From positions 1 to 39,990 of IMG/VR virus record IMGVR_UViG_3300025598_000078: a DNA stretch of 39,990 nucleotides. One strand, written 5' to 3'. This stretch comes from a virus. Positions 11,367-31,475 of this stretch are shown piece by piece (within the stretch, counting starts at the first letter, position 1; each line of letters starts with the position of its first letter). The notes beneath the pieces were generated by a model that searched no databases, had not been told where the DNA came from, and worked only from the letters and a program-made list of their open reading frames with translations. A program made the position numbers and the translations under genes.

Positions 11367-11474
11367 AATATTTTCCCAGTTGGGTGGGTGACAGATGATG
11401 CGGCACTTCTTTTGAAAGTACCCTGCCACCCATTGTTACAAACTTGGCATCACACAAGTTTTAATACTATAACA

Positions 11475-11630: not shown

Positions 11631-11643
11631 AATTTTTTCCTTT

Positions 11644-11671: not shown

Positions 11672-11692
11672 AGTTTACTTCGCGCATTAAAA

Positions 11693-12718
11693 TCAATAAG
11701 CCGCAGATAGCAAATACATTGCTTCAGGTCTTAAACCCCAACCTGATGTAGATCTCATTGTGTATAAAGTTGTGATGCCGCCGTCAGGGATCGGAGTAGG
11801 GATCTCTGTAGGAGCAGACACATCAGTAAGCATCAATGATGTTGCAGTTTGATTTGGAGTTAAAGTTGCAAAAATGTTAGTGTTAATTTGTGCGTTAGCT
11901 TTAGGAATCTTAAGTTCAGGAGCAATTAAAAGAATTGCATCTGTACCGCCAGCGCCCTGACCAATGAGAGTATCATCGGCTGCAAAACTAACATCATCGC
12001 CACCTGCCCATGAAGCAACAGTTTCAACTAAACCTGCGGCTGTTTCAACACCAGCACCAATTCTTTGGAACTGAGTTAAAGAAACAACGCCTGAGTAGCT
12101 GATTTGGCTAATAAAGCGTTGTGGAGCTAAGAACACTAAACGCAATGGCTGACCAATTTGCAATGTATTGGTTTTTAAAGTACCAATCATGTTTAGCATA
12201 TATTGAGCCAATTGTCCTGAATCCCACTTAGAATAGCCTGTATTACCATTTGTATCAGCACCTAATGTAGATGTTGTGATACCAGCAGTATTGAGCAAGC
12301 CTTCGCCATTGGCAGGATTGTAACCATACAATAGTGCATTACGCAACTGTTGTGCAATACCTTGACGAGCAGCAAGACGCATAGCTTGTGGTAAAGCATA
12401 ACCCCAAGCGCCAGTAGCGGCTTCATCAAAGTTATCATATTGTGCTCTAGTTTGAACACGATATGTAGCAGTGCTGATCATAGAAGGGATGACTGAAGCA
12501 CTTGGCAATTGGTTAAATTGAGATTGGTTAGCTTGAACTTGAGTTGTAAGTTGTACTTTTTTAGCGTACACATACAAATCAGCTTCACCTAATCTAGCCA
12601 TTGGGTTTTCTGTAGCAAGAGTTGTAAACGCACCGGAAGCCAAACTGTACTGCATAATCAGTTCAGGCATCATAAAGTGCGGATTAGCTGTTACAAATGA
12701 GGGAGCAAAGCCTGACAT
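11693..12718 (-). CDS. Major capsid protein (DUF2184-like)
   Basis: A 341-residue protein downstream of the protease/scaffold and cement genes and directly before a strong terminator. Visible segments match the DUF2184 major capsid family of HK97 fold: an N-arm (MSGFAPSFVTANPHFMMPEL), an E-loop region near residues 50-90 with YRVQTRAQYDNFDEAATGAW, and a P-domain helix with PQAMRLAARQGIAQQLRNALLYGYN. The C-terminal part ends WGLRPEAMYLLSAAY. It forms the icosahedral shell after scaffold removal. No cleaved N-terminal delta domain is obvious, so maturation cleavage may act mainly on the scaffold. Confidence 0.82.
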   Translation of the reverse strand: MSGFAPSFVTANPHFMMPELIMQYSLASGAFTTLATENPMARLGEADLYVYAKKVQLTTQVQANQSQFNQLPSASVIPSMISTATYRVQTRAQYDNFDEAATGAWGYALPQAMRLAARQGIAQQLRNALLYGYNPANGEGLLNTAGITTSTLGADTNGNTGYSKWDSGQLAQYMLNMIGTLKTNTLQIGQPLRLVFLAPQRFISQISYSGVVSLTQFQRIGAGVETAAGLVETVASWAGGDDVSFAADDTLIGQGAGGTDAILLIAPELKIPKANAQINTNIFATLTPNQTATSLMLTDVSAPTEIPTPIPDGGITTLYTMRSTSGWGLRPEAMYLLSAAY

Positions 12719-12733
12719 AGTAAAGTTCCTTTA

Positions 12734-13381
12734 TTAAATTAGGCAAAGAGCCACATATTGATTGTAAATCCAGTTAGCAGTATTTGTTCCTGAACTATAG
12801 GAAACAGTTTTATTGCCACTGGTGCTAACTGCGATAACCTTTACAGGGAAAGCAGCTTGTGTACCGGGTTGTGTTGTTGTTACCCAGTTGTTTGTGTAGT
12901 TAAAGTAAACAGTAGTTGTAATCAATTGTCCATCAATACCTACAGAAGCAGGGTCAAGAACCAAAGGAATACGAGCGCCGCTACCAAAACGATAGAAGTT
13001 TACTGACATACCGGGGCTAAATAGAGGCGCTGTACTCTGTGGAGTAGTAATACCTGCATAAGCCTGATTGTAGACTGCGATACCTGTTGGGTTTGCAGAG
13101 CCAGTAGCTTGAAGAACTGAAGAACCAAGAGTTGCAGTGCCGGGCTGTACGTTGCCTGATAAAGTACCTTGGCCATTCTGTCCAACAGCAGAAAATTCCT
13201 GAATTGGAATACCGCCCCAAATAGGTGTAGTTGCTGATGTAGAAAGAACACCACCAGCTAAGTAAAACTTAACTGCTGGATCATCTTGTGCATCACCTTG
13301 CGTAAAACCAGCGGAGTTGGTATTAAATAAACCAGCCGCGTTGGTTGTTTGCATAGGATTTAGTGAAATGAGTGCTGACAT
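12734..13381 (-). CDS. Capsid cement/decoration protein (putative)
   Basis: A 215-residue protein between the protease/scaffold and the major capsid gene. Its make-up is almost all beta-forming, with many Thr/Ser/Gly/Asn and few charges (GTLSGNVQPGTATLGSSVLQ, SPGMSVNFYRFGSGARIPLV). Position and composition fit a structural cement protein that stabilises the expanded capsid. The family was not identified beyond that. The intervals to both neighbours are short (10 to 16 bases), so all three are in one operon. Confidence 0.65.
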   Translation of the reverse strand: MSALISLNPMQTTNAAGLFNTNSAGFTQGDAQDDPAVKFYLAGGVLSTSATTPIWGGIPIQEFSAVGQNGQGTLSGNVQPGTATLGSSVLQATGSANPTGIAVYNQAYAGITTPQSTAPLFSPGMSVNFYRFGSGARIPLVLDPASVGIDGQLITTTVYFNYTNNWVTTTQPGTQAAFPVKVIAVSTSGNKTVSYSSGTNTANWIYNQYVALCLI

Positions 13382-13391
13382 AATCTAATCC

Positions 13392-14252
13392 TTATTTTCT
13401 GTTGTTGTTGAGGTTAAAATCTTTAACTCTTAAAGATGGTACTTTAAATGAATCGAGCCATCCAAATCCACCTTTAAATCTGCTGATAGTACGACCTGAA
13501 GCATCTCTTTCCTTAATTTCGTATTCAGCATCAGCCGCATACATAGCTGGAGATTTAGCCGCAACTAAAGCATCATTAAAAATTTGCTTTTCTGCAATAG
13601 AAAGCATCTTTTCACCTTTGATTTCTTTAAGAAGATTTACATCTTTATAAGTATCAGAGTATGCCTGTAAACCACGCAACAAACGCTTACGATAAGCAAC
13701 TAAACTTTCACCTTGTAATGGTCTTGAAGCAGATTTACCAAAAGCGGAGAAAACGCTATCGGCTTTAGCTTGTGCATCAGCATATTTAGCTTCTTCTTCA
13801 TCCATCTTCATAGCTTCTTCATCTTTCTTAGACATTTTTTTGTCATCGTCATCATCATCATCGTCATCATCTTTTTTGAATTCCATGTGACCGGGATGTT
13901 CAACTTTTCCTTCATCGTCAGGCTTCATTTCTCCAGCCTTTCCATGTTCTTTAGGATCAGAGCCTTCTGCGTCTTTACGATCATCATCGTCATCTTTACG
14001 CTTTTTAGCATCCATCTTTCTTTCCATGAATTTTTTAGCTTCTGATTCTGATTCTTCATCATCATCATCGCACATTGCATCATCATCGTCTTTTTTAGCT
14101 TTCTTTTTGTCAGCCGCAGTAACCAATGGTGGTGCTGGTAAGTTTTTCTCCATACTATCTACACGATAAGCAAGATTGCTCAAGGCTGATAGAATGGCAT
14201 CTAATTTTTCACCTTGGGCATCTGCCTTTGGTGCATTTACATTTTCATTCAT
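13392..14252 (-). CDS. Scaffold protein from internal start (predicted)
   Basis: An in-frame ATG at 14252 (residue 581 of the long protein) has GAGG at 14261-14264, eight bases upstream, and begins exactly where the scaffold-like part begins (MNENVNAPKADAQ). Translation from it would give a free 286-residue scaffold alongside the protease-scaffold fusion. This is the arrangement known for lambda C and Nu3, where the scaffold is read from an internal start in the protease gene. The prediction rests on ribosome binding site and domain boundary; no expression evidence is available. Confidence 0.6.
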   Translation of the reverse strand: MNENVNAPKADAQGEKLDAILSALSNLAYRVDSMEKNLPAPPLVTAADKKKAKKDDDDAMCDDDDEESESEAKKFMERKMDAKKRKDDDDDRKDAEGSDPKEHGKAGEMKPDDEGKVEHPGHMEFKKDDDDDDDDDDKKMSKKDEEAMKMDEEEAKYADAQAKADSVFSAFGKSASRPLQGESLVAYRKRLLRGLQAYSDTYKDVNLLKEIKGEKMLSIAEKQIFNDALVAAKSPAMYAADAEYEIKERDASGRTISRFKGGFGWLDSFKVPSLRVKDFNLNNNRK

Positions 14253-15992
14253 ATTTGATACCTCAGGGTTAGTTAATAAAACTCCGGCTGGATCGCCACC
14301 TTTATCCCATACTCCTTTAGATCCTCTAGCTTTGGTAACAATAGCTATATGATCTAAAAGAAATGGAACACCTTCTATTAAGAGTGGCTCACCATTCTCA
14401 GTAGTAAGTGTAGTGTTTCCTGCTGTATTGTCAAATACAACAGAAGGGGATGTACTAATTTCACCTTCGCAAATCTCATTAATTGCGTCTTGATCGTAAA
14501 TTTTAGCAATACCCCAAACCTCGTCACCTTTAATATAAGGCAACATAATACTTCCAACTGCTCTATCTTTGAATTCTTTTCCATTCAATACAGCAGTTTC
14601 AGGATGATCCATGATCACCATTAAACCATTACATCTTCTTAAAAATTCATCATTCAAATACAGTGATGAATCTCTCCAAACATATTCACCTATAGAACCT
14701 CTATATGCTAATCCAGTTCCAGTAATACGAATTGCCAATAGCATAATATTCGCATACATTTGTGGACTTGGCAAAACATTTGCTTTAACTAATTCTGCAA
14801 CATCCAATTCAGTTTTAATACTTGCTACTTTCATTGCTATTTCTAAACCGGGGTGCAATGGCTGTGGTGGTTGATTAACAGGACACCAATCGTATCCAGT
14901 AGATTCATAATTTAGCTTCACATCGCACTTTTCAAAACCTCTTGCAATGTAAGTACAAAATTGACCATCATCATGCAATACTTCTAGCTTGCCCTTGTAG
15001 TCAATTCCTGTTTCCTCGAAACATTCTCTACGAGCACATTCCTCTAAACTTTCATCTTTTAAATTTTGATGACCACCGGGTACTGCCCATGTGTAAGGGT
15101 AATCCCCACCATCACCTCTGCGAATCATTAAAACTTCGCCACCATCAGTTAAAAATAATATTCCTGAAGCTCTACCTTCTGCTCCAGCATCTTTAGCTAC
15201 AGGCTTGGATTCTTGAACAGGAACTTGTTCCCCATGAATATCTGAAATACTCATTGCTGAATCAGGTACACAATTAGGAACTTGTTTACCATTTTTTTCT
15301 TTCATGCCTATTTGATGATAATCTTCCCAGCATGGATCTTCATCAGGGATAGATTCTGCATAATCAATTAAAGCATCCAAGATATTGGTTAAATCATGCT
15401 TGACATCATCAGCATCACATTTCCACTTACGCAAAGATTTATTAATTCTTGAATCAGGGTCGTTAGCTGTCTTTTCTGAAGTTAATTTTTCTTTCATGCC
15501 CTTCATGCGGGCGCAAAATGACTGCTTGCGAGAGCCACCTTCAGGTTGAGGCGCTTTTAAATGCGCGCCATGTTCTCTATTGTAAGATTCGCGGCCTTTT
15601 TCATTTAAACCGCCATTTTTATTTTTACCTTCTTTAGTTTGCCATGCTTCAGAATCAGATCCAAAACGAGGAACTGGCTCGCCATTTCTAACCATAACAT
15701 CATCAGATTGCATGGCTTTTTGAAGATAATTATCTACTTTTACACCTAAAATTTTACGGCTGATCGCTTCTATCTCATGCCTAATTGAAGCAAGCTGATG
15801 CTTCGCTTCGCTTAATTCAGAGCTTTCATCTTCTATAAATTCAGGGGTACTTAATGGGGTGGGTTCTTCGGGAATTTCATCAGTAGAGTGCTTAATGAAT
15901 TTTTTTGCCACTTCTTTAGGGATGCCAATATTGCTCTTACCGCTTGCGGCAGCGTACATAGCTTTTCGTTGGGCTTCTGACTCAAATGGCAT
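13392..15992 (-). CDS. Prohead protease-scaffold fusion with DUF6321-like and Nudix domains
   Basis: An 866-residue, multi-part head maturation protein. Residues 1-35 have the MPFESEAQRKAMYAAASGKS opening. About 90-195 match DUF6321-like sequence (GLNEKGRESYNREHGAHLKAP; SRKQSFCARMKGMKEKL; TANDPDSRINKSLRKWKC), and 222-243 carry the short GMKEKNGKQVPNCVP motif. A Nudix domain occupies about 272-392, with its box at 306-330 (E314, R322, E323, E326, E327, G329) and one extra residue before E314 relative to the GX5E pattern. Residues about 402-575 look like a DUF2213 prohead protease. From 581 a scaffold follows with a run of ten Asp (708-717) and basic segments. The fusion puts nucleotide hydrolysis and capsid maturation in one chain. 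A second start probably lies at residue 581. Confidence 0.85.
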   Translation of the reverse strand: MPFESEAQRKAMYAAASGKSNIGIPKEVAKKFIKHSTDEIPEEPTPLSTPEFIEDESSELSEAKHQLASIRHEIEAISRKILGVKVDNYLQKAMQSDDVMVRNGEPVPRFGSDSEAWQTKEGKNKNGGLNEKGRESYNREHGAHLKAPQPEGGSRKQSFCARMKGMKEKLTSEKTANDPDSRINKSLRKWKCDADDVKHDLTNILDALIDYAESIPDEDPCWEDYHQIGMKEKNGKQVPNCVPDSAMSISDIHGEQVPVQESKPVAKDAGAEGRASGILFLTDGGEVLMIRRGDGGDYPYTWAVPGGHQNLKDESLEECARRECFEETGIDYKGKLEVLHDDGQFCTYIARGFEKCDVKLNYESTGYDWCPVNQPPQPLHPGLEIAMKVASIKTELDVAELVKANVLPSPQMYANIMLLAIRITGTGLAYRGSIGEYVWRDSSLYLNDEFLRRCNGLMVIMDHPETAVLNGKEFKDRAVGSIMLPYIKGDEVWGIAKIYDQDAINEICEGEISTSPSVVFDNTAGNTTLTTENGEPLLIEGVPFLLDHIAIVTKARGSKGVWDKGGDPAGVLLTNPEVSNMNENVNAPKADAQGEKLDAILSALSNLAYRVDSMEKNLPAPPLVTAADKKKAKKDDDDAMCDDDDEESESEAKKFMERKMDAKKRKDDDDDRKDAEGSDPKEHGKAGEMKPDDEGKVEHPGHMEFKKDDDDDDDDDDKKMSKKDEEAMKMDEEEAKYADAQAKADSVFSAFGKSASRPLQGESLVAYRKRLLRGLQAYSDTYKDVNLLKEIKGEKMLSIAEKQIFNDALVAAKSPAMYAADAEYEIKERDASGRTISRFKGGFGWLDSFKVPSLRVKDFNLNNNRK
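13842..13871 (-). repeat. GAT/GAC triplet tract encoding ten aspartates
   Basis: A 30-base run of aspartate codons within the scaffold part of the fusion protein. It could vary in length by slippage without loss of frame. Confidence 0.85.
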
Positions 15993-16001
15993 ATATAAAA
16001 C

Positions 16002-16802
16002 CTACTGTTGTTTCTCGGATTGTAATTCTTTTTTACCTTTTGTGGTTAAAAAATCTTCAGGTAAATCTTTTATTTTATAAATATACACATAACGACACCT
16101 ACAAAAAACAGCTTCTCCGGGCGCTATGACTTCATCAGTATATCCATTAACTGCTTTTATTAAACGCTTTTCAACAGCCCAACTACCTCTAACCAAATAA
16201 ATAATGCCATCTAACTCTTTGTGATCTTCTCGATAATTGTAATTTGCTTGACGCCAATTGCTATGCCATCTTGCTGCAATTGCGCCGTTATCTACCGCTA
16301 CAATCTCATTAATATTATTAATCAATTTATGTGTTTGGTCAATAATGACTCTACGTTCTTTAAAGTCAATAGTGGCCAAATCTTTTCGTATATTTTTCTT
16401 TTCTTTTTTCTTATCTACAATGTCAGTTCCGCCGATAGGGATACTGGTAGCCCAGCCGGCGAAACGTCTTAAAGTATTGCTGATAGTTTCTTCGCGATTA
16501 TATTTTATTAAGTTTGCTGAGGCCATGATGCGTCGATCAAGTTCGGCGCGGAGTTTAGGCTTTAATTTATCGAGAGTAAATTTAGAAACATTGTCATTAA
16601 TTAATCCGCCTTTTGTAACTAAACGTGAATAAGCTTGACCTAAAGAGCGCTCAATTTCTTTTTGCATCTCTTTTTCTGTAATTAACGATTTTACGGCGGC
16701 TTCGCGTAGTTTTTCTATCCAAAAATCAAGTCTTTTTTGGCTGTCAAAGCCATATCGCATAAAATCGGCGATGGCTGCGGTGACTACCTCATAAAAAGTC
16801 AC
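16002..16802 (-). CDS. Phage head morphogenesis protein (Mu F/SPP1 gp7-like)
   Basis: A 266-residue protein immediately downstream of the portal gene, the usual position for minor head protein F/gp7. The C-terminal part has the family's sign: W-R-Q-A-N-Y-N-Y-R-E-D-H-K-E-L-D-G then I-A-P-G-E-A-V-F-C-R-C-R-Y at about residues 230-245, a motif shared by Mu F-like proteins and thought to bind metal. The N-terminal half is helical. The protein is thought to be a few copies in the prohead and to travel with DNA into the cell in relatives. The start is 3 bases from the portal stop. Confidence 0.8.
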   Translation of the reverse strand: MTFYEVVTAAIADFMRYGFDSQKRLDFWIEKLREAAVKSLITEKEMQKEIERSLGQAYSRLVTKGGLINDNVSKFTLDKLKPKLRAELDRRIMASANLIKYNREETISNTLRRFAGWATSIPIGGTDIVDKKKEKKNIRKDLATIDFKERRVIIDQTHKLINNINEIVAVDNGAIAARWHSNWRQANYNYREDHKELDGIIYLVRGSWAVEKRLIKAVNGYTDEVIAPGEAVFCRCRYVYIYKIKDLPEDFLTTKGKKELQSEKQQ

Positions 16803-16804
16803 GT

Positions 16805-18217
16805 TTAATCCTTGGATGGTGGCTCAGTTGGTGCGGTTAGTGGAGTAGGTGGTTCATATTCAGCGATGGCTTCAATATCCAAATGCATAGTGCTTTTAAA
16901 CATATCAGGCATTTCGGCCAAATTGTCTTGCGCCCACTGAATTGCTCTTGCTCTATTTTCGCCATCAATGACAGGTAAGAGAGTTCTAAGCATTTCAGTC
17001 ATACCTTTGAGTTTAACTTCATCAGTTTTCACGCGTTCAGAAACAGGTTCTTCCATTAAACTTTGCCAACTAGGCTTAAATGCATCCTTCCAACTGTAGA
17101 AAGCTTCTTTATATGTCATATTGGCATACTTGTCAGGGTACGCTTGTTTGACTGACTCATAAAATTCTTCATTCCATGCGCGGTGTTGTACTATATTGTC
17201 AAAAAAGTCGAACAAAGTTTTCATGTCGGCTCTTATTCCTTCGACATATTGCACAATAGCTTTACTATCTTCTGTACCTTCACCAAAACCATTAGTAAAT
17301 GCTTCATCTTTAATTAACATAGCAGGTACATCTGAAGCAGCAGCAATATTGGCAATAATGTTATCTCTTGCAGTAGTCATTGCTGTATCTGTATTATTTA
17401 AATCTACAGATTCAATATCTTCATCTACATCAATACTTAAAACATTACCTGTAGTACCCTGTTGTAAATACGTACGTTTAATACCCGATGCAATTTGCAT
17501 TGCCCGATTGACAATTGACCCAGCTTGCTTTTGTTTAATAATTAAAAGTCCAGCTTTCATTGTCACCATGTCATCGGTAATCATGGACTGAACAAAAGAT
17601 TTTAAAGGGTAGAGCGCTCTTTGAAAAACTGAACGGCCAGTAAAACCATACGCTGAAGATTGAAAACTTAAATAGATGGGCGTATTGTTAAACACAACCA
17701 CAGATCTACTTGGGTGATACGGCTGACCGGCGGCAGTTACGAAAGGTAATGGTTTTTGAAAGTCGGGCGCATTAGGGTTTTGATTAGTAACAATGGATCC
17801 TGCGGTGTTTAGCGGATCGAGTTGATTAAAATACAAATTTAAATACGGCAATTTCCAAGGATCAATCGGTTCTGTTGTAGGTATGTTCTCCGCCCCAACG
17901 ACAATGGCGGCCGCGCCATATACTCTTTTTAAATATGTTACGTCGCGAATGTGGTTTGTTGCACCTAATGAATCCCACTCTCTTTGAAACGCATCGGTTA
18001 GCATTTCTTTAGGTTGAGCGTCGATATTGATACTTCTTGGTTTAGATAAAGCTAAAGTAATCGGTTTTTCAATTAATTTACCAGCTAAAGGATGGTATTC
18101 CCAAATGGTTTTGCATAACTCATATCCAGCGGGAGTACCCGGCTCAATAGTTTGAGCACTTAAAAGTTGCATTAACTGTGATGGTACTGATGAATTAGTA
18201 ACTGATAGATCAGACAT
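16805..18217 (-). CDS. Portal protein (DUF1073/gp6-like)
   Basis: A 470-residue portal. The N-terminus reads L-C-K-T-I-W-E-Y-H-P-L-A-G-K-L-I-E-K-P, and later come VYGAAAIVVG, an L-D-P-L motif and PYHPSRSVVVFN. These are typical of DUF1073 portals, in which twelve subunits form the vertex that packages and ejects DNA. It lies 10 bases after the terminase stop and just before the MuF-like gene. The C-terminal 40 residues are Pro-rich (EYEPPTPLTAPTEPPSKD). Length and order fit the family. Confidence 0.85.
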   Translation of the reverse strand: MSDLSVTNSSVPSQLMQLLSAQTIEPGTPAGYELCKTIWEYHPLAGKLIEKPITLALSKPRSINIDAQPKEMLTDAFQREWDSLGATNHIRDVTYLKRVYGAAAIVVGAENIPTTEPIDPWKLPYLNLYFNQLDPLNTAGSIVTNQNPNAPDFQKPLPFVTAAGQPYHPSRSVVVFNNTPIYLSFQSSAYGFTGRSVFQRALYPLKSFVQSMITDDMVTMKAGLLIIKQKQAGSIVNRAMQIASGIKRTYLQQGTTGNVLSIDVDEDIESVDLNNTDTAMTTARDNIIANIAAASDVPAMLIKDEAFTNGFGEGTEDSKAIVQYVEGIRADMKTLFDFFDNIVQHRAWNEEFYESVKQAYPDKYANMTYKEAFYSWKDAFKPSWQSLMEEPVSERVKTDEVKLKGMTEMLRTLLPVIDGENRARAIQWAQDNLAEMPDMFKSTMHLDIEAIAEYEPPTPLTAPTEPPSKD

Positions 18218-18226
18218 AATTACCCT

Positions 18227-19519
18227 TTAGAATCCTAGTTTATTTCCAACGCCGATAGCGATACTATACACCACCGCATCGAGCAAGTCATCAGCCCTTT
18301 TATGAGCATCTTTATCACCAATTCTGAATGATGCTAATTGATTTAGCAAGTGATTGCGCGATGAACCTTTAAAATTAACAGTTTTATCGTAAGCAAACTC
18401 GCTTATTTTTATCTTTTCTTGATGATAGTAACCTGACACGTCGATAGCGCGTTCATCTTTCCCCATCTGCGTTAGCTTGCTGTCAATCTCATGCACATTC
18501 CACCCCCGACTGCGGCCTTGTTGCAAAAGTATCGTGCCCGCCGCCGCATCTTCGATAAATGTTCCAGCCACGCCGTACCTTGCTCTTGTTAATCTAGCGA
18601 ATTCTTCCAAGCGCATAAAAACGCTAGGCATATAGTTTTCTAATAAAGAGCCATCAATTTGAATAATGTCCCAATCCAAGATAGTCAGCGGTATGCCAAG
18701 CAACTCATTGTAAGCACAATAGACGATGGCCGTTCCGTCGTGATCTTTACCACCTTTCACAGCGCAGTCCATCACGGCGAACACAGAGTCACAGCGTTCG
18801 GGGTAGGGTACGGGGTTGTGATTGACTAATAATTTATCGATTGCAAAAAAGGCCACCCCTGACCAGTCTACAAATTCGGCCAAATACTCTTGCTTAAAGA
18901 CTAAAGGGTGGTTGCGTACTCTTTCGCGTTCTAACTCATCAAGAGGGACATACGGGTTGGTGCTAGTGGGCGCATGGAACGAACTAAAGCCCATATCTTC
19001 ATCATTACACGCGGCGTAGAAAAAATTATCAGGATCCACGCCGTTCGGGGTAGAAAATACCCAAGCAATCCCGCGAGTAGTTAGCATGGTTGGCTTGATT
19101 GATTTGAACCAAATTTCTTCTTTCATCTGCGGTGATTTGGTAAAGCCCGCCTCGTCAATCAGCACCATGTCATACTCACGGCCTCGGCCAGCGAGTTCGT
19201 TGTCGTTTAATGTCCAAAAATCAACTTTTCCGCCATTAATTAATTTCATCGTGCCATCATTGCGATTGGCAGTTTTTACCACAGGATCAAGAATATCGCG
19301 CAAATGATCCCAAGGTTCAGCTAACTGCTTATGTTCCGGTGCAAAAATTCCAATTGACTTGCGATTACAGGCGTTTTTGGCAGCTAACCATTCTAAAAAA
19401 CGCGTTTTACCCCATCGCCTACCGCAACGCGTAACATTTAATCGATTTTGCTGGTTAAATAAAGCTTCTTGTCCAGTATGTAAAACGGGCAATACTACCC
19501 GTTTGATATTTTCTGTCAT
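18227..19519 (-). CDS. Terminase large subunit
   Basis: A 430-residue packaging motor. Residues 33-39 (GRRWGKT) form the Walker A, with an Arg-Trp before the Gly-Lys-Thr as in many terminases. Walker B is at 117-123 (DMVLIDE, D122 and E123), followed by a coupling S-T-P-N-G at about 156-160. The nuclease domain has D251 (AVMDCAVKGG), E323-D324 and D411 or D414 (RADDLLDAVVY), the acidic triad of the RNase H-like fold. The ATG overlaps the stop of the small subunit by one base. It cuts and translocates the concatemer into proheads. Confidence 0.92.
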   Translation of the reverse strand: MTENIKRVVLPVLHTGQEALFNQQNRLNVTRCGRRWGKTRFLEWLAAKNACNRKSIGIFAPEHKQLAEPWDHLRDILDPVVKTANRNDGTMKLINGGKVDFWTLNDNELAGRGREYDMVLIDEAGFTKSPQMKEEIWFKSIKPTMLTTRGIAWVFSTPNGVDPDNFFYAACNDEDMGFSSFHAPTSTNPYVPLDELERERVRNHPLVFKQEYLAEFVDWSGVAFFAIDKLLVNHNPVPYPERCDSVFAVMDCAVKGGKDHDGTAIVYCAYNELLGIPLTILDWDIIQIDGSLLENYMPSVFMRLEEFARLTRARYGVAGTFIEDAAAGTILLQQGRSRGWNVHEIDSKLTQMGKDERAIDVSGYYHQEKIKISEFAYDKTVNFKGSSRNHLLNQLASFRIGDKDAHKRADDLLDAVVYSIAIGVGNKLGF

Positions 19520-19926
19520 TAGTTTATTTTAGGCTCCGGTAATGCATTTTCTACAATAATGCGAATATCTTGAGAGCTATCACCATCCGGTTTAGCCGGT
19601 TTCCAGCCATGTAAGTGCGTCATAATTACTGTCGCCGCTTTAGTATCGCCGCTTAATGCATTTTTCATCAATGCGCCGCTAACTTCTGCTTGATTTACTG
19701 CGCGCGCGTATGTAATCATATTCGCTGCGCGGTCGTCGGCAGCGCACAAAATAGCAAAATCTGTAGGTAAATACCCTGACGATAGCGCTAAAGCATCGCC
19801 TGTAAGCCCTCTGTAAGCACTATCATAGATACGCTCTAAATCTTCTTCCGTCGCCGTTATCTTTTTGGCTTTAAAGTCAATTGAGTAAAATAAAGGGTCG
19901 GGTGAAAAACGATTTTTTGTACTCAT
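19519..19926 (-). CDS. Terminase small subunit (putative)
   Basis: A 135-residue protein immediately upstream of the large subunit and overlapping it by one base, the position of the DNA-recognising small subunit. The sequence is helical, with DLERIYDSAYRGLTGDALALSSGY near residues 30-55 and many Ala/Lys/Arg. A helix-turn-helix is plausible but not clear. It opens the late operon, directly beside the large control region, so late transcription probably starts just before it. Confidence 0.7.
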   Translation of the reverse strand: MSTKNRFSPDPLFYSIDFKAKKITATEEDLERIYDSAYRGLTGDALALSSGYLPTDFAILCAADDRAANMITYARAVNQAEVSGALMKNALSGDTKAATVIMTHLHGWKPAKPDGDSSQDIRIIVENALPEPKIN

Positions 19927-19958
19927 AATAACTTCCCGCTATTTAACAAATATGTACG

Positions 19959-19987
19959 ATATTAGCATAAAGGTTAAAAAACGCCAA
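19959..19987 (-). promoter_or_regulatory. Candidate late promoter
   Basis: On the minus strand TTGGCG (19982-19987) and TAATAT (19959-19964) are 17 bases apart, about 30 bases upstream of the small terminase start. Each matches four of six positions of sigma-70 hexamers. A 19-bp palindrome lies just upstream of the -35. Confidence 0.4.
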
Positions 19988-20000
19988 TGTAGGTTTATAG

Positions 20001-20019
20001 TGTAAAAGAATCTTTTACA
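20001..20019. promoter_or_regulatory. Operator-like palindrome, left copy
   Basis: TGTAAAAGAATCTTTTACA is a 9-bp inverted repeat around a single central base, the size expected for a dimeric repressor. A related site occurs at 20847-20865. The two lie near the two edges of the control region, beside the late and early promoters. Confidence 0.65.
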
Positions 20020-20168
20020 GTATATTTTTTAAAAAATTTTTTTTGGCTTTTTTCTAAAATGCTTTTAGCTAATGGCTAGGTGCAAAAAGGCATATAGCCA
20101 CGCAGCGGTGTGGGTAGAAAAGGAGGGGGAGGCTCATTCGATTTTGATAGACTAAAAAATCCCTTTAT

Positions 20169-20184
20169 AATCAATAACTTACGG
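20169..20184. repeat. Border repeat, left copy 1
   Basis: AATCAATAACTTACGG is the exact reverse complement of 24734-24749, on the far side of the CpG-rich gene block. It lies just before a 7-bp hairpin. Confidence 0.75.
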
Positions 20185-20212
20185 CTTTTAGCCCGCAAGC
20201 CGTCGGCCGCAA

Positions 20213-20483
20213 GCCCCTAGCTAAAAGCTAAAAGCCCCCGCCCGCAAGCCGTAAACTCTAGTAAAATCAATAACTTAGGGGCTAGATAACGCCGCCTTAT
20301 GGATTGTCAAATTGTCATAAGCCCTTAAGCCGATAGCATGAAGTTAAAAACTAGGGGCGTGAAAATTAAGGGCTAGGGGGCGGGGGTAAAAAATTAGTAA
20401 AAATACATTAGCCCCCTAGCTCTTAGCCATAACTTTTTAGCTTTTAACCCCTAACATTTAGCCCCTAGCAAAAATCCCCTAGC
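20213..20483. repeat. Cluster of CCCCTAG motifs
   Basis: The word CCCCTAG or its complement occurs at about seven places (near 20213, 20276, 20351, 20373, 20412, 20461 and 20476) within 270 bases. Two of them form a 9-bp perfect inverted repeat (CTAGGGGGC at 20373-20381 and GCCCCCTAG at 20411-20419). It could be a set of binding sites (iterons) for a phage initiator or regulator. Confidence 0.65.
20262..20276. repeat. Border repeat, left copy 2
   Basis: TAAAATCAATAACTT is the exact reverse complement of AAGTTATTGATTTTA at 24799-24813, and the same word also occurs at 24738-24752. It belongs to the inverted border repeats on both sides of the CpG-rich gene block. Confidence 0.75.
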
Positions 20484-20526
20484 ACGGCCAAAAAAGCGCC
20501 GCCCTATTTATTGCCATATTGGCAAA

Positions 20527-20557
20527 TTGTCATTACCTAAAAATTGCTCGCTATAAT
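20527..20557 (+). promoter_or_regulatory. Candidate rightward promoter upstream of the LexA box
   Basis: TTGTCA (20527-20532) and a perfect TATAAT (20552-20557) are separated by 19 bases, slightly long. Transcription would start near 20564, and the LexA box lies at about +10 to +29, where bound LexA would block the polymerase. Confidence 0.5.
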
Positions 20558-20572
20558 TACACAGTAATTTTA

Positions 20573-20592
20573 TACTGTATATATATACAGTG
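20573..20592. promoter_or_regulatory. LexA (SOS) box
   Basis: TACTGTATATATATACAGTG matches the E. coli SOS box consensus at 19 of 20 positions, including the full CTGT-N8-ACAG core and the alternating AT centre. The core is an 18-bp perfect palindrome. It lies just downstream of a TATAAT promoter facing the early genes. The alternative is a chance AT-rich palindrome, but the exact core match makes this unlikely. Confidence 0.75.
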
Positions 20593-20621
20593 GTATTTTT
20601 AAAATCTAAATAAGTAATAAG

Positions 20622-20639
20622 CATAACAATTTAACCAAT
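20622..20639 (+). repeat. 18-bp direct repeat, copy 1
   Basis: CATAACAATTTAACCAAT occurs here and again at 20755 and 20892, at spacings of 133 and 137 bases. All three copies are on the plus strand, upstream of the early operon. Confidence 0.85.
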
Positions 20640-20754
20640 TAGCCCCGCTTCCCCGTATGCTATAAAGCCCCGCCCATTGTCATAAGCCCTATTTTCATAA
20701 CCTAAAAATTGACAATAAAAACCCCTATTTTGCCAATACTAGCAAGCCCCCCGC

Positions 20755-20772
20755 CATAACAATTTAACCAAT
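20755..20772 (+). repeat. 18-bp direct repeat, copy 2
   Basis: Exact copy of the CATAACAATTTAACCAAT element. It precedes an AT-rich stretch with two TTGACA words (20807 and 20815). Confidence 0.85.
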
Positions 20773-20838
20773 GCCAAAAATAAAAAACAACAACAACAAA
20801 AATATTTTGACAATTTGACAATTATTTAAAAAAAGCGC

Positions 20839-20867
20839 TTGCAAACTGTAAAAAAATCGTTTACATT
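20839..20867 (+). promoter_or_regulatory. Candidate early promoter overlapped by operator
   Basis: TTGCAA (20839-20844) and TACATT (20862-20867) are 17 bases apart and each matches four of six sigma-70 positions. The space between them is filled by the palindrome at 20847-20865, the layout of a repressed promoter. It lies about 55 bases upstream of the first early gene. Other starts in this AT-rich stretch are possible. Confidence 0.5.
20847..20865. promoter_or_regulatory. Operator-like palindrome, right copy
   Basis: TGTAAAAAAATCGTTTACA shares the outer TGTAAAA/TTTACA half-sites and the central AATC of the site at 20001-20019 and has the same 19-base length. It sits between the -35 and -10 of a candidate early promoter. 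Confidence 0.6.
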
Positions 20868-20891
20868 AACAATATGGCGCAAGTAAAACGC

Positions 20892-20909
20892 CATAACAAT
20901 TTAACCAAT
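20892..20909 (+). repeat. 18-bp direct repeat, copy 3
   Basis: Third exact copy of CATAACAATTTAACCAAT. It ends two bases before the AGAGGG ribosome binding site region of the first early gene, so it lies in the leader of the early transcript. Confidence 0.85.
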
Positions 20910-20923
20910 ATAGAGGGCTTAGC

Positions 20924-21016
20924 ATGATAGATAAAATTTTTTATTACTTAATGGCCGCAAGCTTTACGGGCTTATTTTTATGTTTAATTGAAATGTTTAC
21001 GAGGGTATATAAATGA
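20924..21016 (+). CDS. Tiny membrane peptide, early gene 1
   Basis: A 30-residue peptide (MIDKIFYYLMAASFTGLFLC...) with one hydrophobic segment over residues 5-24. AGAGGG lies nine bases before the ATG and the stop overlaps the next start (ATGA). Not recognised. Its position as first gene of the early operon suggests a membrane-targeting or leader role, but nothing shows this directly. Confidence 0.55.
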   Translation: MIDKIFYYLMAASFTGLFLCLIEMFTRVYK

Positions 21017-21114
21017 AAACAAAAATAATTGATTATGTATTAGGCGGCCTATTTATGGCCATAACGGGCGCGCTATTGGCCTTAGTTTATATCTATAAAA
21101 CGGGGGGATTTTAA
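21013..21114 (+). CDS. Tiny membrane peptide, early gene 2
   Basis: A 33-residue peptide with a short Lys-containing N-terminus, MKTKIIDYVLGG, then a hydrophobic segment (LFMAITGALLALVYIY) and a KTGGF tail. It overlaps the previous gene by 4 bases and is preceded by GAGGG. One membrane pass is predicted. Function unknown; both tiny genes look like paired membrane peptides. Confidence 0.55.
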   Translation: MKTKIIDYVLGGLFMAITGALLALVYIYKTGGF

Positions 21115-21116
21115 TC

Positions 21117-21353
21117 ATGTCTTTACTACAAGAGATAGCAGCGCACGGCCTCGCGTATTGCGCCTATAATAACGCGCTCACTAATATTGATCAAATAAGC
21201 GATAGTCAAAAATTACGGATAGCGCAAGCGATACTGTCGGATTTATATCATCAATACGGCCATAATTGGAACAATAGCGCCGTGATCAACGCGCTATCAT
21301 GCGCGGATTCTTGCATTATCGAAGTAATTAACTTTATAGAGGAAGCGGCCTAA
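21117..21353 (+). CDS. Early protein, unknown function
   Basis: A 78-residue, mostly helical protein with several Cys (HGLAYCAYNNAL, CADSCIIEV). The ATG is 2 bases after the stop of the previous gene and the stop overlaps the next ATG, so it is translationally coupled. No family recognised. Confidence 0.65.
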   Translation: MSLLQEIAAHGLAYCAYNNALTNIDQISDSQKLRIAQAILSDLYHQYGHNWNNSAVINALSCADSCIIEVINFIEEAA

Positions 21354-21466
21354 TGTATATCGTATTTTATTCAATTCAAGGTGAGGAATATTCTATCCGC
21401 TTCAATACATTAGAGGCGGCGCAGCTATTCGCGCGCAAGTATAACGGCAAAATTCAAACCAATTAA
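21353..21466 (+). CDS. Tiny early protein, unknown
   Basis: A 37-residue peptide (MYIVFYSIQGEEYSIRFNTL...) whose ATG overlaps the previous stop. It has a beta-like start and a short helix (EAAQLFARKYNG). The mix of one strand pair and a helix resembles a very small regulator fold, but it is not recognised. Confidence 0.45.
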   Translation: MYIVFYSIQGEEYSIRFNTLEAAQLFARKYNGKIQTN

Positions 21467-21486
21467 ACAGAAAAGAGGGCGTAAAA

Positions 21487-22230
21487 ATGAGCGATAAAAC
21501 GAATGATTTTAAATTAAAAAATACAATTCATAAAATGCTAATTGAAAACACGGGGCGGCATTTTTTAGACAGTGGCGGCGCGTATGGCCGCCAATGGGAA
21601 AAGAATCAAGGTAAAACTTTAGAGGATTTTCAAAACGAAGCGCCCGCCTACTTGGATATATCAAGCGGTGTATATAACGGCGTGAAAAGCTATGATTTTA
21701 GCGTCGGCGTTAGTTTATACCATAAGCTTGTAGCTTGCTTAGAATTAGATCAATATTGTATAGAGTTTAATTCTATGGCCGTCGATAATTGGCAAAATGA
21801 TCAATTTTACGGAGTTAGCGATAGCGGCGGGGAATGGCTAGAAAATAAGGGCTTTACAGAATCGCGCGAATGGTTTACGGGCGGGTTTAATTCTTACAAT
21901 TTTAATTCTAACTTATCGCAAGATATTCAAGGGCATATTTTAGACAGTGAAAACGGGGATAAATACGTATTACTACAAATTCACGGCGGTTGTGATATTC
22001 GCGGCGGCTACACTGACGCCAAGCTTTTTAAATTTGTGGATTATTGTGAGCCATATAATTTATTTGATAGTTTTTGTTTTTTTGATGTAGGCGGCACGGC
22101 CTTAGATTACCGCGACAACGACGGCTTCACGGATAGCGAGGGCGCTTATATCAATACTGAAAAGTTAAACGAGATCGGCGCGCGAATTGGTGATTGTTTA
22201 ATTAACGGCTTTTTTAATACTGATTATTAA
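21487..22230 (+). CDS. Conserved phage early protein, unknown function
   Basis: A 247-residue protein beginning after GAGGG. The segment MLIENTGRHFLDSGGAYGRQWEKNQ at residues 18-42 resembles a conserved hypothetical family I recall from phage and plasmid accessory regions of many bacteria. Many Asp, Tyr, Asn and Gly residues (DNDGFTDSEGAY, GGCDIRGGYTDAKLF) suggest a compact, acidic, soluble fold. It is acidic overall, as DNA-mimic or host-inhibitor proteins can be, but that role is not shown. Its usual partner family is the next gene. Confidence 0.7.
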   Translation: MSDKTNDFKLKNTIHKMLIENTGRHFLDSGGAYGRQWEKNQGKTLEDFQNEAPAYLDISSGVYNGVKSYDFSVGVSLYHKLVACLELDQYCIEFNSMAVDNWQNDQFYGVSDSGGEWLENKGFTESREWFTGGFNSYNFNSNLSQDIQGHILDSENGDKYVLLQIHGGCDIRGGYTDAKLFKFVDYCEPYNLFDSFCFFDVGGTALDYRDNDGFTDSEGAYINTEKLNEIGARIGDCLINGFFNTDY

Positions 22231-22243
22231 GAGGGGCTTAAAA

Positions 22244-22528
22244 ATGATTACTCAAAGCGATTTTACAAGAGTTAATAATGATGTAAACGGGAACCCGCGT
22301 TATGTCGCGCACTTCCTAAGCTTTACACGGCCTAGCGATCTAAGCGAGTATATGGGCTTAGATAAAATAGCGCAAAAATATAACCTAGCATTAAGCCGCG
22401 CGAAAACGCTAGGCGGCCGCAAATTTAGCAATAAACAATACGGCGGCGGGATTGTGTTCACTTCTTACAATTTGCGCGAATTATGTGAGCGCGTCAATGC
22501 AATTTTAGAGGGCTTAGAAAATGAATAA
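22244..22528 (+). CDS. Conserved phage early protein, unknown
   Basis: A 94-residue protein that follows the 247-residue protein in the same operon, after GAGGGG. It contains V-N-G-N-P-R-Y-V-A-H-F-L-S-F and, near residue 65, the KFSNKQYGGGIVFTSYN segment. I recall a small protein family with this pattern near the previous gene's relatives in phages and mobile elements. Likely a single alpha/beta domain. Role unknown. Confidence 0.7.
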   Translation: MITQSDFTRVNNDVNGNPRYVAHFLSFTRPSDLSEYMGLDKIAQKYNLALSRAKTLGGRKFSNKQYGGGIVFTSYNLRELCERVNAILEGLENE

Positions 22529-22712
22529 TTATCAAAATAGATTAACTTTAGAAAAGCAAGTATTTGAATTAACCCTTGATAACTGTATGAATGATACGGC
22601 CTATAACGATAATACGCTATTCGATATTTTAAATTATGGTTTTAAGGGCTTTAAAAATATGAGTTTAGAGGAATTAAAACGCGAATTTTTTATATTAAAT
22701 GAGGGGCGCTAA
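22521..22712 (+). CDS. Small early protein, unknown
   Basis: A 63-residue helical, acidic and aromatic protein (NNYQNRLTLEKQVFELTLDNCMND...FKGFKNMSLEELKREFFIL) whose start overlaps the previous stop by 8 bases. Not recognised. Confidence 0.55.
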   Translation: MNNYQNRLTLEKQVFELTLDNCMNDTAYNDNTLFDILNYGFKGFKNMSLEELKREFFILNEGR

Positions 22713-22714
22713 AA

Positions 22715-22879
22715 ATGCGAGAATATGAAATAAAAATAAAAATTAAGCTTGATGATGAGGGTTATATTCTCAAAAATAATTGGATATATACCGCGATCGA
22801 GGAACAATTAACCTATGAGGGCGTGAAAGAGGAAATAACAGAATTTAAAATCCGCGAAATAGGGGGCGCGAATGAATAA
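22715..22879 (+). CDS. Small early protein, unknown
   Basis: A 54-residue protein (MREYEIKIKIKLDDEGYIL...), with AGGGG before the ATG. An alternating strand at the start and a helix (YTAIEEQLTYEGVKEEITEF) give a beta-alpha-beta look. It is embedded in the operon with an 8-base overlap of the next gene. Role unknown. Confidence 0.55.
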   Translation: MREYEIKIKIKLDDEGYILKNNWIYTAIEEQLTYEGVKEEITEFKIREIGGANE

Positions 22880-23075
22880 CTACTATATAAATTATAAAAA
22901 TTATCTAATAACCCTTGATCATACGCCCGCCGCCATTGTCGCAAGCGCCTTGCATGATAACGGGGATTATTTTAAACGATCGTATATATTTTATACAAAA
23001 ACGCAAATAATACGCGATATAAAGCGCGCTTGTAGTGAGCGCATTAAAAACAATTTTAAATTAGAGGATTATTAA
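22872..23075 (+). CDS. Small early protein, unknown
   Basis: A 67-residue protein with a Tyr/Asn-rich start (MNNYYINYKNYLI) and a basic second half (IRDIKRACSERIKNNF). The ribosome binding site AGGGGG lies in the preceding gene. Not recognised; the basic tail could bind nucleic acid. Confidence 0.5.
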   Translation: MNNYYINYKNYLITLDHTPAAIVASALHDNGDYFKRSYIFYTKTQIIRDIKRACSERIKNNFKLEDY

Positions 23076-23077
23076 AA

Positions 23078-23293
23078 ATGAGAAAAAATAGCAAGTATTT
23101 GACTAAACAAAATTACACGCCGCGCACTGTTAGGCTAAAAAACACGCCCTATAAAATAGCTTTACCCTATTGGTTTAATAAAGGCCTAGAATTTAATATT
23201 GGTAATATTCGCTTTAAATATGACGGCCTTGAAGTTATCGCTCTCGATAAAATCCCCGATTCATGGTTAATTGATCTAAACGCGGCCGATTAA
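23078..23293 (+). CDS. Small early protein, unknown
   Basis: A 71-residue basic protein (MRKNSKYLTKQNYTPRTVRLKNTPYKIALPYW...). It has AGAGG before its ATG and ends 19 bases before a strong terminator, so it closes the first part of the early operon. Not recognised. Confidence 0.55.
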   Translation: MRKNSKYLTKQNYTPRTVRLKNTPYKIALPYWFNKGLEFNIGNIRFKYDGLEVIALDKIPDSWLIDLNAAD

Positions 23294-23312
23294 AAAATTA
23301 TCAGTTAAAACG

Positions 23313-23334
23313 CCCCGCGCTTGCGGGGTTTTTT
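23313..23334 (+). terminator. Rho-independent terminator, early operon part 1
   Basis: A 6-bp stem CCCCGC (23313-23318) with GCGGGG (23323-23328), a GCTT loop and six T residues. It lies 20 bases after a stop and would end or weaken the early transcript before the next two genes. Confidence 0.88.
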
Positions 23335-23377
23335 GGCGGGTAATTTTGCCCGATTTTAGACAATAGAGGGTTTAAAA

Positions 23378-23512
23378 ATGAATGATGATCTATACCGCTA
23401 TATTGCGGATTATATTCTATATGAATTATTTGAGCTTAAGAAAACACGCGCGGATATTAACGCGGATATGATCGCCGCCGCGATCGAAGCTTACAACGGG
23501 GGCGCTCGATAA
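23378..23512 (+). CDS. Small acidic early protein, unknown
   Basis: A 44-residue helical protein (MNDDLYRYIADYILYELFEL...) with AGAGGG nine bases upstream. The stop shares a base with the start of the next gene. Not recognised. It begins a second transcription unit after the terminator, unless some transcripts read through. Confidence 0.5.
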   Translation: MNDDLYRYIADYILYELFELKKTRADINADMIAAAIEAYNGGAR

Positions 23513-24237
23513 TGAATAATCAATATATGAGATCGGCGCACCGCCTAGCGATCTATCGCAAGCGCGCAAGCGAAGCAAAAACTGAATATTATAAAAATTG
23601 GCGACAATGCCGCTATGGTTTAATGGCGGGTTATCGTAAAAATTTTCAACAATTTACTATGAGAGATAATGGCCGCATTTATGCCGATAGCCTCGAAGTC
23701 ATAGGCCAATATATCGGGGCGGCGGGGGATTATATGCGCCTTAAATACACGGGATATTATGCCGATAATAGCGGATTTTCTACAATCACGGGCGGCGTGG
23801 TTAAACTGCGCCATTCGCGGGGAGTGGATTATATTCCCGTTACATTTTCGAATGAATATGACGGCGTTACATTGTATTTCAACGATCGCGAGCGCGTAGA
23901 AAAGGGCGCGCAAGACCATGAAAACGCAATACGCGCGGCCGCAAGTGGCGCGGATCACCACGCCGAGCGCGAGGCCGAGCGCGAGCGCGAAAACGACGCA
24001 AAAAACGCGGCCGAGAATGAAATATACGATCTTCAAAATGAGATTAGCGAGGCCAAAAAAGCCGCGCGCGAGCTTATCCACGCGATACGCGCACAACGCG
24101 AGGCGGGCGCGATACAAGCGCCAATATGCGAGGCGCTAATCAGTAAATTAAAACAATACAAAAATGATGTTAAGGCCGCCCGCGCGCGAATCGCGGCGCT
24201 AAATGATAATTTTTGGTTATCAATAGGGGCTTATTAA
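23512..24237 (+). CDS. Early protein with long coiled coil, unknown
   Basis: A 241-residue protein. The first 135 residues form a mixed domain (MRSAHRLAIYRKRASEAKTEYY..., RIYADSLEVIGQYIGAAGDYM, VDYIPVTFSNEYDGVTLYFND). The rest (about 135-235) is very rich in Ala/Arg/Glu with long heptad-like helices (AEREAERERENDAKNAAENEI, AKKAARELIHAIRAQREAGA) and is very GCGC-rich in DNA. It is probably a dimeric coiled-coil protein. Function unknown. Confidence 0.6.
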   Translation: MNNQYMRSAHRLAIYRKRASEAKTEYYKNWRQCRYGLMAGYRKNFQQFTMRDNGRIYADSLEVIGQYIGAAGDYMRLKYTGYYADNSGFSTITGGVVKLRHSRGVDYIPVTFSNEYDGVTLYFNDRERVEKGAQDHENAIRAAASGADHHAEREAERERENDAKNAAENEIYDLQNEISEAKKAARELIHAIRAQREAGAIQAPICEALISKLKQYKNDVKAARARIAALNDNFWLSIGAY

Positions 24238-27647: not shown

Positions 27648-29585
27648 CTACTTTCCATATCGAGTCATAACATTTACTTCTACGTCTAAGGGTAAATCAG
27701 TAGCCCATGCAGGGGGCGTACACATGACGCGTTTTAATTCTTCAGCATCTTCTTCAGGGTTATCTGTTTCTAAAACGATTTCATCGTGGACATGCAACAC
27801 TACATTATCTAATTGACGCAAGGTGCTACGCAATATGTCATTAGCAACAGCTTGTGTAATGTTTTCACAAGCAAGTCCTTTCCATAAACGTGCGCGAGGC
27901 CACTCTTTAGCATCTGCGGCAGGTTTCCAAGCAGCTTTAGCATACGATACGCCATCCTCATCTAAACGCGCGTATGGATAGCATAGCACACGGCCTGATG
28001 GTAAAGCGTACCAAAGATGTAAACCATCAAAAAGATAGGTTACACGCCCTGCAACAAACTCTGTGTTAGGGTTTCTTAGCGCACGTGTATAGGCAGTTTC
28101 TAGTTCTTGCCAATAGTGAACAGCCCACGGATTAGCTCTACGCCAAGCATCCACAGTTCTCTTAGCGTCAGACTCAGGAAGATGAATCCCGTAGCCACGA
28201 CCCATAGCAGCAAAAGCACCGATACCACCGCCGTAGCCACAAGATAATATAGCAACTTTACCAATCTGCCTACGATCAGAAGTAATCTCTGATTCGCTAC
28301 ATCTGAATATCCCGGCTGCTTCTCTAACATAAATATCTCTCCCTGATCTAAAAACATCTAACACTTCTTCTGCTGAACTTTGATTTGATAGCCAAGGATT
28401 TGCACGCGCCTCGATAGCTGCCCAATCCGCTACGACCAACGACTTACCTTTAGCGGGCAATAGCGCAGGTCTTAGCATACCTTTCAATACATCCGTCACG
28501 CGCTTGCCATACATAGGCACAATCGCTTGATTAGATACCATAGCTTGACGCACTGCCTCAGGATTTTTAGCGCACTTGCGTGTAAAGTTATGCACTTGTA
28601 AGCCAAAGCTAGACACCCTACCTGTTGCGCTACCGCCATTAAACACAAACGCACCACGCACTCTTGCATCTTCATCATCGGCCAGCTTTACCATGCGCTC
28701 AAACTTCGCTACAGACGACGCCCACAAATCATCAGCGCATTGAATAACATCAGCGACATGCGGTGGCACTTCATCAGCATCATCCATGATTAATAAGTTA
28801 GCGCGGACAGTCTTATCAATGGAGTATTTTTTACGGCCTTCTTTATAAGACTCCATCAATTTTAATGCTTGCTCTCCAACGCGTGCCTGTACCCACTCGC
28901 GCATTTTAGGTGATCTCACGCTAGTGATTTCGCCCTCAGTGATTTCTGAAACTAAGTTTTGTATTTCTTCTAATTCAGTCGCAGCGTAACGCATGGCTGC
29001 TTTAGCAAGTGAAACATCCACTAACACGCCACGATCATTGATGCGCTCGTTGATATGGTAATCATGCAATTCTTCAGCCGATAATTGACGTTGGCTAAGA
29101 CTAATAACACGCATAGCGCGAACGTCTTGTTCACAGTATTCAACCATTTCCTTCATCAATTCAGGATCATTATTGAACGTGCCATCTGCCTTAGGAATAG
29201 ATAGCAAACGAATTAATTGACCGCCTCTGTAATCCTTTTGCATCGACGCCCCTGCAAACCGACCAACATCTTCGAGTGAGCCGGGCGCACAATTGGCTCT
29301 TGCTTGCGCTGCCGTGCAATAAAATTGTTCTAATTTAAAGTTAATACCCAATACATACCAAAATATTAAACGCTCAAACGTAGCATTATGAGCGTAAATA
29401 ATGCCATCGTAATCTTTAACTTCTTGAGGAAAGGTTTGGTGAGGAAGCCATGTTTTAACTTCCTCATCATCAAACGCATACGACATGCATAACACTTCGG
29501 TAGTAATATCTTGCGCGTAATTGTAAACGCCCTTTTCAAGCAAGTTGCATTTACTACGCGTTTCAAAATCAACCCAAAGTGTCAT
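27648..29585 (-). CDS. Family A DNA polymerase with 3'-5' exonuclease
   Basis: A 645-residue polymerase without a 5'-nuclease domain. Exonuclease motifs: W-V-D-F-E-T with D6 and E8, A-H-N-A-T-F-E near 65-71 and Y150 with D154 (YCEQDV). Polymerase motif A is V-V-A-D-W-A-A-I-E-A-R (D387, E392), motif B is RQIGKVAILSCGYGGGIGAF (438-457, with K443 and Y451) and motif C is H-V-H-D-E (H600, D601, E602). The length is typical for polymerases in phages with a DUF2800 neighbour. It copies the phage genome with proofreading. It follows the conserved 220-residue gene after 3 bases. Confidence 0.93.
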   Translation of the reverse strand: MTLWVDFETRSKCNLLEKGVYNYAQDITTEVLCMSYAFDDEEVKTWLPHQTFPQEVKDYDGIIYAHNATFERLIFWYVLGINFKLEQFYCTAAQARANCAPGSLEDVGRFAGASMQKDYRGGQLIRLLSIPKADGTFNNDPELMKEMVEYCEQDVRAMRVISLSQRQLSAEELHDYHINERINDRGVLVDVSLAKAAMRYAATELEEIQNLVSEITEGEITSVRSPKMREWVQARVGEQALKLMESYKEGRKKYSIDKTVRANLLIMDDADEVPPHVADVIQCADDLWASSVAKFERMVKLADDEDARVRGAFVFNGGSATGRVSSFGLQVHNFTRKCAKNPEAVRQAMVSNQAIVPMYGKRVTDVLKGMLRPALLPAKGKSLVVADWAAIEARANPWLSNQSSAEEVLDVFRSGRDIYVREAAGIFRCSESEITSDRRQIGKVAILSCGYGGGIGAFAAMGRGYGIHLPESDAKRTVDAWRRANPWAVHYWQELETAYTRALRNPNTEFVAGRVTYLFDGLHLWYALPSGRVLCYPYARLDEDGVSYAKAAWKPAADAKEWPRARLWKGLACENITQAVANDILRSTLRQLDNVVLHVHDEIVLETDNPEEDAEELKRVMCTPPAWATDLPLDVEVNVMTRYGK

Positions 29586-31456: not shown

Positions 31457-31475
31457 AAACTTTTGTGTTATATTT

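Follow-up and report, generated by a model that had tools for sequence, protein, structure and literature searches.

A putative operator for host LexA recurs upstream of an early operon in a large group of uncultured phages

The stretch of viral DNA analyzed here (39,990 nucleotides; the window) carries a LexA box (SOS box) of the beta/gammaproteobacterial type, TACTGTATATATATACAGTG, at positions 20573 to 20592. Judging from the sequence, this site is probably an operator for the LexA protein of the host that gates one early operon of the phage, a reading to which we assign a probability of roughly 0.7. The E. coli LexA-box consensus is TACTGTATATATATACAGTA; the site agrees with this consensus, which may not be that of the host, at 19 of 20 positions and at all 8 core positions. 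It is the sole match in the window with three or fewer mismatches when both strands are read, with 0.01 expected in shuffled sequence, and the only perfect CTGT-N8-ACAG. Six further CTGT-N8-ACAG sites have one mismatch, so that the total of seven is at chance level (10.4 expected). The sequence ACTGTATATATATACAGT is a perfect 18-nt palindrome.

The window encodes the proteins of a contractile-tailed phage, among them sheath, baseplate, major capsid protein, portal, and large terminase, together with a DNA polymerase of family A type, a primase, an exonuclease, a DNA helicase, an endolysin, and a holin. The box has a leftward late operon on one side and, on the other, small early-type genes that form a rightward operon. 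The late operon begins, on the minus strand, with a gene resembling that of the small terminase subunit (TerS; 19519 to 19926), which has no Pfam or PHROG match, aligns with the TerS-position genes of relatives, and adjoins the gene for the large subunit (TerL; 18227 to 19519, minus strand); structural genes lie further along. On the plus strand, the first open reading frame (ORF) after the box encodes a 30-aa single-TM-like peptide and has a Shine-Dalgarno sequence (20924 to 21016). It is followed by a second single-TM-like peptide of 33 aa (21013 to 21114), with similar short peptides in loci L002, L017, and others; a 78-aa protein with no function attached (21117 to 21353); a 37-aa ORF with a Shine-Dalgarno sequence (21353 to 21466); a 247-aa protein of PHROG 11344 (21487 to 22230); a 94-aa protein matching Pfam PF24229 (Phage_TreK; E value of 2.4e-19; 22244 to 22528); and four small ORFs of 63, 54, 67, and 71 aa (22521 to 23293). 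A 44-aa ORF and a 241-aa protein of PHROG 8188 (23378 to 24237) end the rightward module. The structural model of the 247-aa protein (pTM of 0.68) has no PDB match at an E value of ≤0.001, its three matches all being unnamed or uncharacterized viral proteins, and the first third of the 241-aa model is poor. PADLOC identified nothing among 10 proteins, and none of these searches gave the operon a function.

The two operons are separated by a divergent region, apparently noncoding, that extends over about 1 kb (roughly 19,930 to 20,920). TATAAT at 20552 to 20557, 15 nt 5' of the box and facing rightward, is the probable -10 element of the early promoter, and TTGTCA at 20527 to 20532 is a possible weak -35 element that also stands before the block in L017 and L231; both are on the plus strand and were read from the sequence. 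This pair is missing from our promoter scan because its 19-nt spacer falls outside the 16 to 18 nt that the scan accepts. With the usual start, the box would span about +8 to +27, a position at which a repressor, once bound, would obstruct RNA polymerase. The -10 block GCTATAATTACAC is found again in L017 and, as GCTACAACTACAC, in L231 and L232, and in podovirus-type relatives the box comes right after an AT-rich stretch that is often -10-like, for example, CATATAAT. An earlier note on this DNA had described a LexA box matching 19 of 20 positions just 3' of a TATAAT that faces the early genes; both elements are borne out, and "switch region," the term used there, is a fair one.

The divergent region also contains other palindromes and repeats. 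TGTAAA-N7-TTTACA occurs as an exact palindrome at 20001 to 20019 on the late side and at 20847 to 20865 on the early side, with a further copy in the window at 38812 to 38830. Both flanking copies are kept in L002 and G001, and single copies are found in G003, G791, L230, and L234; a phage regulator may bind these palindromes. Between the box and the first early gene lie three direct repeats of CATAACAATTTAACCAAT, possible iterons (20619 to 20639, 20752 to 20772, and 20889 to 20909).

As the earlier note had advised, the motif was sought in related phages, and it recurs at the equivalent place in many of them. Relatives gathered by TerL numbered 23 loci in a first scan and 80 in an alignment-based search. 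Eight of these 80 carry a box of 19 or 20 of 20 positions (L002, L003, L004, L005, L008, L017, L231, and L232), which in L231 and L232, at 63% TerL identity, reads TACTGTATAGATATACAGTA. No box is present in the other 72, several of which end short of the place upstream (e.g., L006); L007, which falls in the TerL clade of L008, lacks one, and the box is absent from the named relatives DSL-LC05 and MW202483. Between the window and L017, the box is 95% identical and the flanks are 53% and 58% identical; between the window and L008, the box is again 95% identical and the flanks, at 40% and 43%, are hardly alignable.

Loci collected by polymerase (n = 79) contribute six sites at 17 to 19 of 20 positions and two core-only sites at 11 of 20, and in the six whose neighborhood was read, a row of small early-type genes again precedes the box. 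On its other side, L367, L372, and L394 have the TerS gene. Two of these, L372 and L394, encode a different large terminase of 506 aa, and the box arrangement therefore spans phages with other virion modules. The 80 loci collected by exonuclease, whose 6-kb flanks mostly stop before the region, have no near-consensus box and three core-only sites. Among whole records, 9 of 25 have a site of at least 16 of 20 positions, one each. None of the alternative LexA motifs GTTC-N7-GTTC, GAAC-N7-GAAC, GAAC-N4-GTTC, and TTAG-N6-TACTA occurs in 30 upstream regions.

Other sites were seen along the way. A GTTAGT-N4-ACTAAC palindrome recurs upstream of TerL in the box-less loci L199, L200, L177, and L014. 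Record G003 has no box at the usual region; at its replication divergent region (29320 to 29339, in L175) it carries TACTGTTTGAGTTCACAGTA, which matches at 14 of 20 positions with a core of 8/8 and both six-letter half-sites perfect. L147 and L164, Rahnella and Kluyvera loci that have a distant TerL in common, contain paired LexA boxes of 17 to 18 of 20 positions about 6 kb before TerL.

Two further samples come from TerS and from the box itself. A scan with the L372 TerS returned 80 loci. Where at least 900 nt of upstream sequence was available, 31 of 60 have the box; at 650 nt or more the figure is 33 of 63 (27 of 47 clusters), with 11 hits in 6,300 first-order Markov resamples, and the other 30 of the 63 are without it. 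L463, L467, and L470 have two or three boxes. The exact 19-mer, searched in the IMG/VR viral collection regardless of phage identity, was found at 119 or more loci. Among the matches listed, 60 of the 119 carry the TerS of this group, forming 33 clusters, and in all 60 the box lies 318 to 998 nt upstream of TerS; the remaining matches listed comprise 3 loci with only polymerase or primase relatives and 56 with neither. A few exact-19-mer records overlap the terminase set (e.g., L004, L038, L042, and L098).

Within this group the box appears to have been gained and lost. In some box-less close relatives the half-sites are broken in place and the TA core is kept, as in L455 compared with L416; one box-less close relative, for example, has ACCTATATATATATACATTT at the spot where ACCTGTATATATATACAGTA stands in L416. 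On a TerS tree of 62 rows (L433 left out), the box label changes 13 times, at least 6 of these changes being forced by well-supported branches. The cargo genes behind the box vary among phages while the operator stays. A short hydrophobic peptide is also encoded early in the operon behind the box in L017, L008, and L231, and many podovirus-type relatives have no such peptide. In L372 (13459 to 14040), and as similar ORFs in L406, L416, and L424, an early protein of about 193 aa gives a weak match to the DNA polymerase III beta clamp (E value of 0.0055, below the family cutoff).

We propose that host LexA bound at 20573 to 20592 would block the promoter of the rightward early operon (20924 to 24237), and that DNA damage in the host would lead through RecA filaments and LexA self-cleavage to expression of that operon. 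We infer LexA binding, repression, and damage induction at this site; the sequence evidence covers the site, its position, its recurrence, the conservation of its half-sites, and the lack of a recognizable integrase or S24 repressor. The earlier note had placed the early gene expression of this phage under LexA. That idea holds insofar as the site resembles a real LexA operator whose position and half-sites are conserved across a wide phage group in which no S24 repressor was found; it is too broad in its scope, as the box precedes only the rightward operon from 20924. LexA control of lysis genes was mentioned there as background; the box here is not before the endolysin and holin genes (36165 to 37482). 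A second divergent region (31425 to 31475), with no LexA box by inspection or in the whole-window scan, is the starting point of both the helicase gene and the operon for primase, polymerase, and exonuclease. Since this replication promoter is box-free, LexA alone should not silence the whole phage. In our opinion, LexA gates an accessory or host-takeover operon and would thereby let a largely virulent phage sense damage; it would not be the keeper of a full lysogenic state. Counting against a LexA operator are the poor -35 element and spacing, the roughly half of the TerS set that is box-less, the 72 of 80 TerL relatives (some too short upstream) and two named relatives without a box, the differing genes behind the box, and the chance that the host has LexA of another type.

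Signs of lysogeny were sought in the genomes themselves and in cellular DNA. The hallmarks of a lambda-type temperate phage, an integrase and an S24 repressor, were not found: matches to PF00589 (integrase) and PF00717 (Peptidase_S24) number 0 of 24 each, with positive controls included, among records some of which may be fragments. One of the 24, G002, is probably complete because it has 120-nt end repeats. Neither gene was found in the window itself, in agreement with the earlier note. A repressor of a non-S24 type could still be encoded, because many small proteins belong to no known family. A TerL scan of a cellular genome collection returned no close integrated relative; apart from two metagenome-assembled genome (MAG) contigs of 16 to 26 kb (79% and 68%), its relatives are at ≤56%. 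Searching window positions 1 to 20000 against 300 Burkholderiales genomes gave matches in 11, which were weak, resembled low-complexity sequence, or fell in conserved genes, and no clear CRISPR spacer. A scan for tRNA genes gave none, either in the window or in 18 loci. G778 (92.9 kb, L508 to L512) was considered as a prophage with host DNA and set aside, since its first ~39 kb mainly match other phages and the remainder is second-phage-like; it resembles two different phages joined in assembly.

LexA-dependent lysogeny, in which host LexA would act as the main repressor of an extrachromosomal, DNA damage-induced prophage like GIL01, is a rival reading that we think unlikely. The operator logic would be that of GIL01, where the LexA site at promoter P1 is needed for lysogeny (PMC4551915), and no other repressor or integrase was found. 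However, the window has a single boxed operon and a box-free replication promoter, and no partition gene was recognized among the window proteins searched. Further, polymerase relatives at an E value of ≤1e-60 were found in none of 399 Burkholderiales genomes and in only 2 of the 369 searched for the class, and the frequent loss of the box would be odd for the sole switch of lysogeny. With moderate confidence we favor gating of one operon over full lysogeny, because no integrase, S24 repressor, or close integrated relative was found and the replication promoter has no box.

The pattern of conservation bears on whose protein reads the site. Across 22 distinct sites, which were picked with a core of at least 7/8, C3, T4, and G5 and T14, A15, C16, A17, and G18 are invariant and the center is variable. 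A nearly fixed CTGT/ACAG with a free center is, on these sequences, the pattern of natural LexA boxes. The palindrome might instead be the operator of a phage-encoded regulator, of a family not known, its likeness to a LexA box being coincidental. A palindromic site between divergent operons would suit such a regulator, many small phage proteins are unassigned, and the flanking TGTAAA-N7-TTTACA copies may serve it. Yet several lineages keep the LexA half-sites despite different centers and neighbor genes, the exact consensus belongs to host LexA, and the window proteins searched include no helix-turn-helix or S24 family; we hold this explanation to be improbable. Less probable still is that the AT-rich palindrome, together with the nearby repeats, belongs to a replication origin or to some other structural element of the DNA: the apparently noncoding AT-rich 1 kb with its three CATAACAATTTAACCAAT copies would fit, but what is kept is CTGT/ACAG rather than AT content, many relatives have G and C in the center, and the flanks of boxed podovirus-type relatives show no such repeats by eye. 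A chance match is hardly credible even in so AT-rich a region, given the expectation of 0.01 in the window and the same placement in many lineages.

Bacterial groups differ widely in their LexA motifs, with other S24 repressors in use in Bacteroidetes (PMC8565304). The Mucilaginibacter/Bacteroidetes labels of the two MAG contigs were rejected as an indication of the host: the early genes have Shine-Dalgarno sequences, the Mucilaginibacter MAG has no LexA match, and both contigs are box-less. Of 200 Burkholderiales genomes, 14 contain strict TACTGTATNNNNATACAGTA boxes and none the reversed pattern; a plausible group, Burkholderiales, therefore does include hosts with boxes of this kind, which does not identify the host of this phage. 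In two proteobacterial genomes, CTGT-N8-ACAG sites adjoin the match to lexA. Lake water is the source of the named relative DSL-LC05, and the metagenome numbers presumably point to lakes and bogs as sources.

Temperate phages of the 186, N15, SPC32H, and CTX type have their own repressor and lysogeny genes. A LexA operator read by the host and switched by the SOS response occurs in 186 (tum), N15, and SPC32H, with the LexA box before an antirepressor, and in CTX phage, examples that are named in PMC9437464 and PMC4551915; the present group would share such an operator but differs in that no S24 repressor or integrase was found. GIL01 of Bacillus thuringiensis is similar in having a host LexA operator at an early/lysogenic promoter and no lambda-type repressor as first control. 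There, LexA acts with gp7 at promoter P1, the box is needed for lysogeny, and mutants in the LexA site dinBox1 fail to establish it (PMC4551915). GIL01 is also a linear-plasmid prophage with a Gram-positive host and LexA motif and a phage co-repressor, gp7. In contrast, the present group consists of tailed phages with a Gram-negative motif, one boxed operon only, and no co-repressor known.

LexA is used by phages of several unrelated groups, and the host regulators CtrA and Spo0A act on others (PMC9437464). The CtrA-controlled phages of Alphaproteobacteria ("lytic deferment") have, repeatedly and independently, placed a few uncharacterized genes under the control of a global regulator of the host, as may be the case here, except that CtrA follows the cell cycle and LexA senses DNA damage (PMC9437464). 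Lytic deferment would entail a host regulator that delays lytic genes in a phage lacking lysogeny genes; of this, the analysis covered the lysogeny genes, with none found in 24 records of the present group. Phi29 likewise is a virulent phage with host-regulator sites in its promoters, differing in that Spo0A and sporulation take the place of the SOS response (PMC9437464). A further paper predicts the SOS dependence of prophages from LexA-box heterology (PMC12527982). A literature search that left most subscription journals outside its range found no publication dealing with LexA boxes in these phages.

We give even odds to a wider view of these phages: that a widespread uncultured lineage with no integrase or S24 repressor of its own couples an early operon to the DNA damage state of the cell through host LexA ("SOS-gated" virulent infection), the coupling being repeatedly gained and lost by operator mutation and the genes behind it exchanged. 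The use of LexA by phages is known mainly from temperate phages that carry lysogeny genes. Here, the operator stands in front of an early operon, and the phages concerned belong to a large uncultured group with no lysogeny genes found, which accounts for half of the exact-consensus viral loci among the matches listed (60/119). The question is directly testable because close relatives offer a natural series of intact and broken boxes. If LexA does bind, natural DNA damage, for example by ultraviolet light, would directly affect the course of infections, and DNA damage in the host would be a signal to apparently lytic phages, as CtrA or Spo0A is to others.
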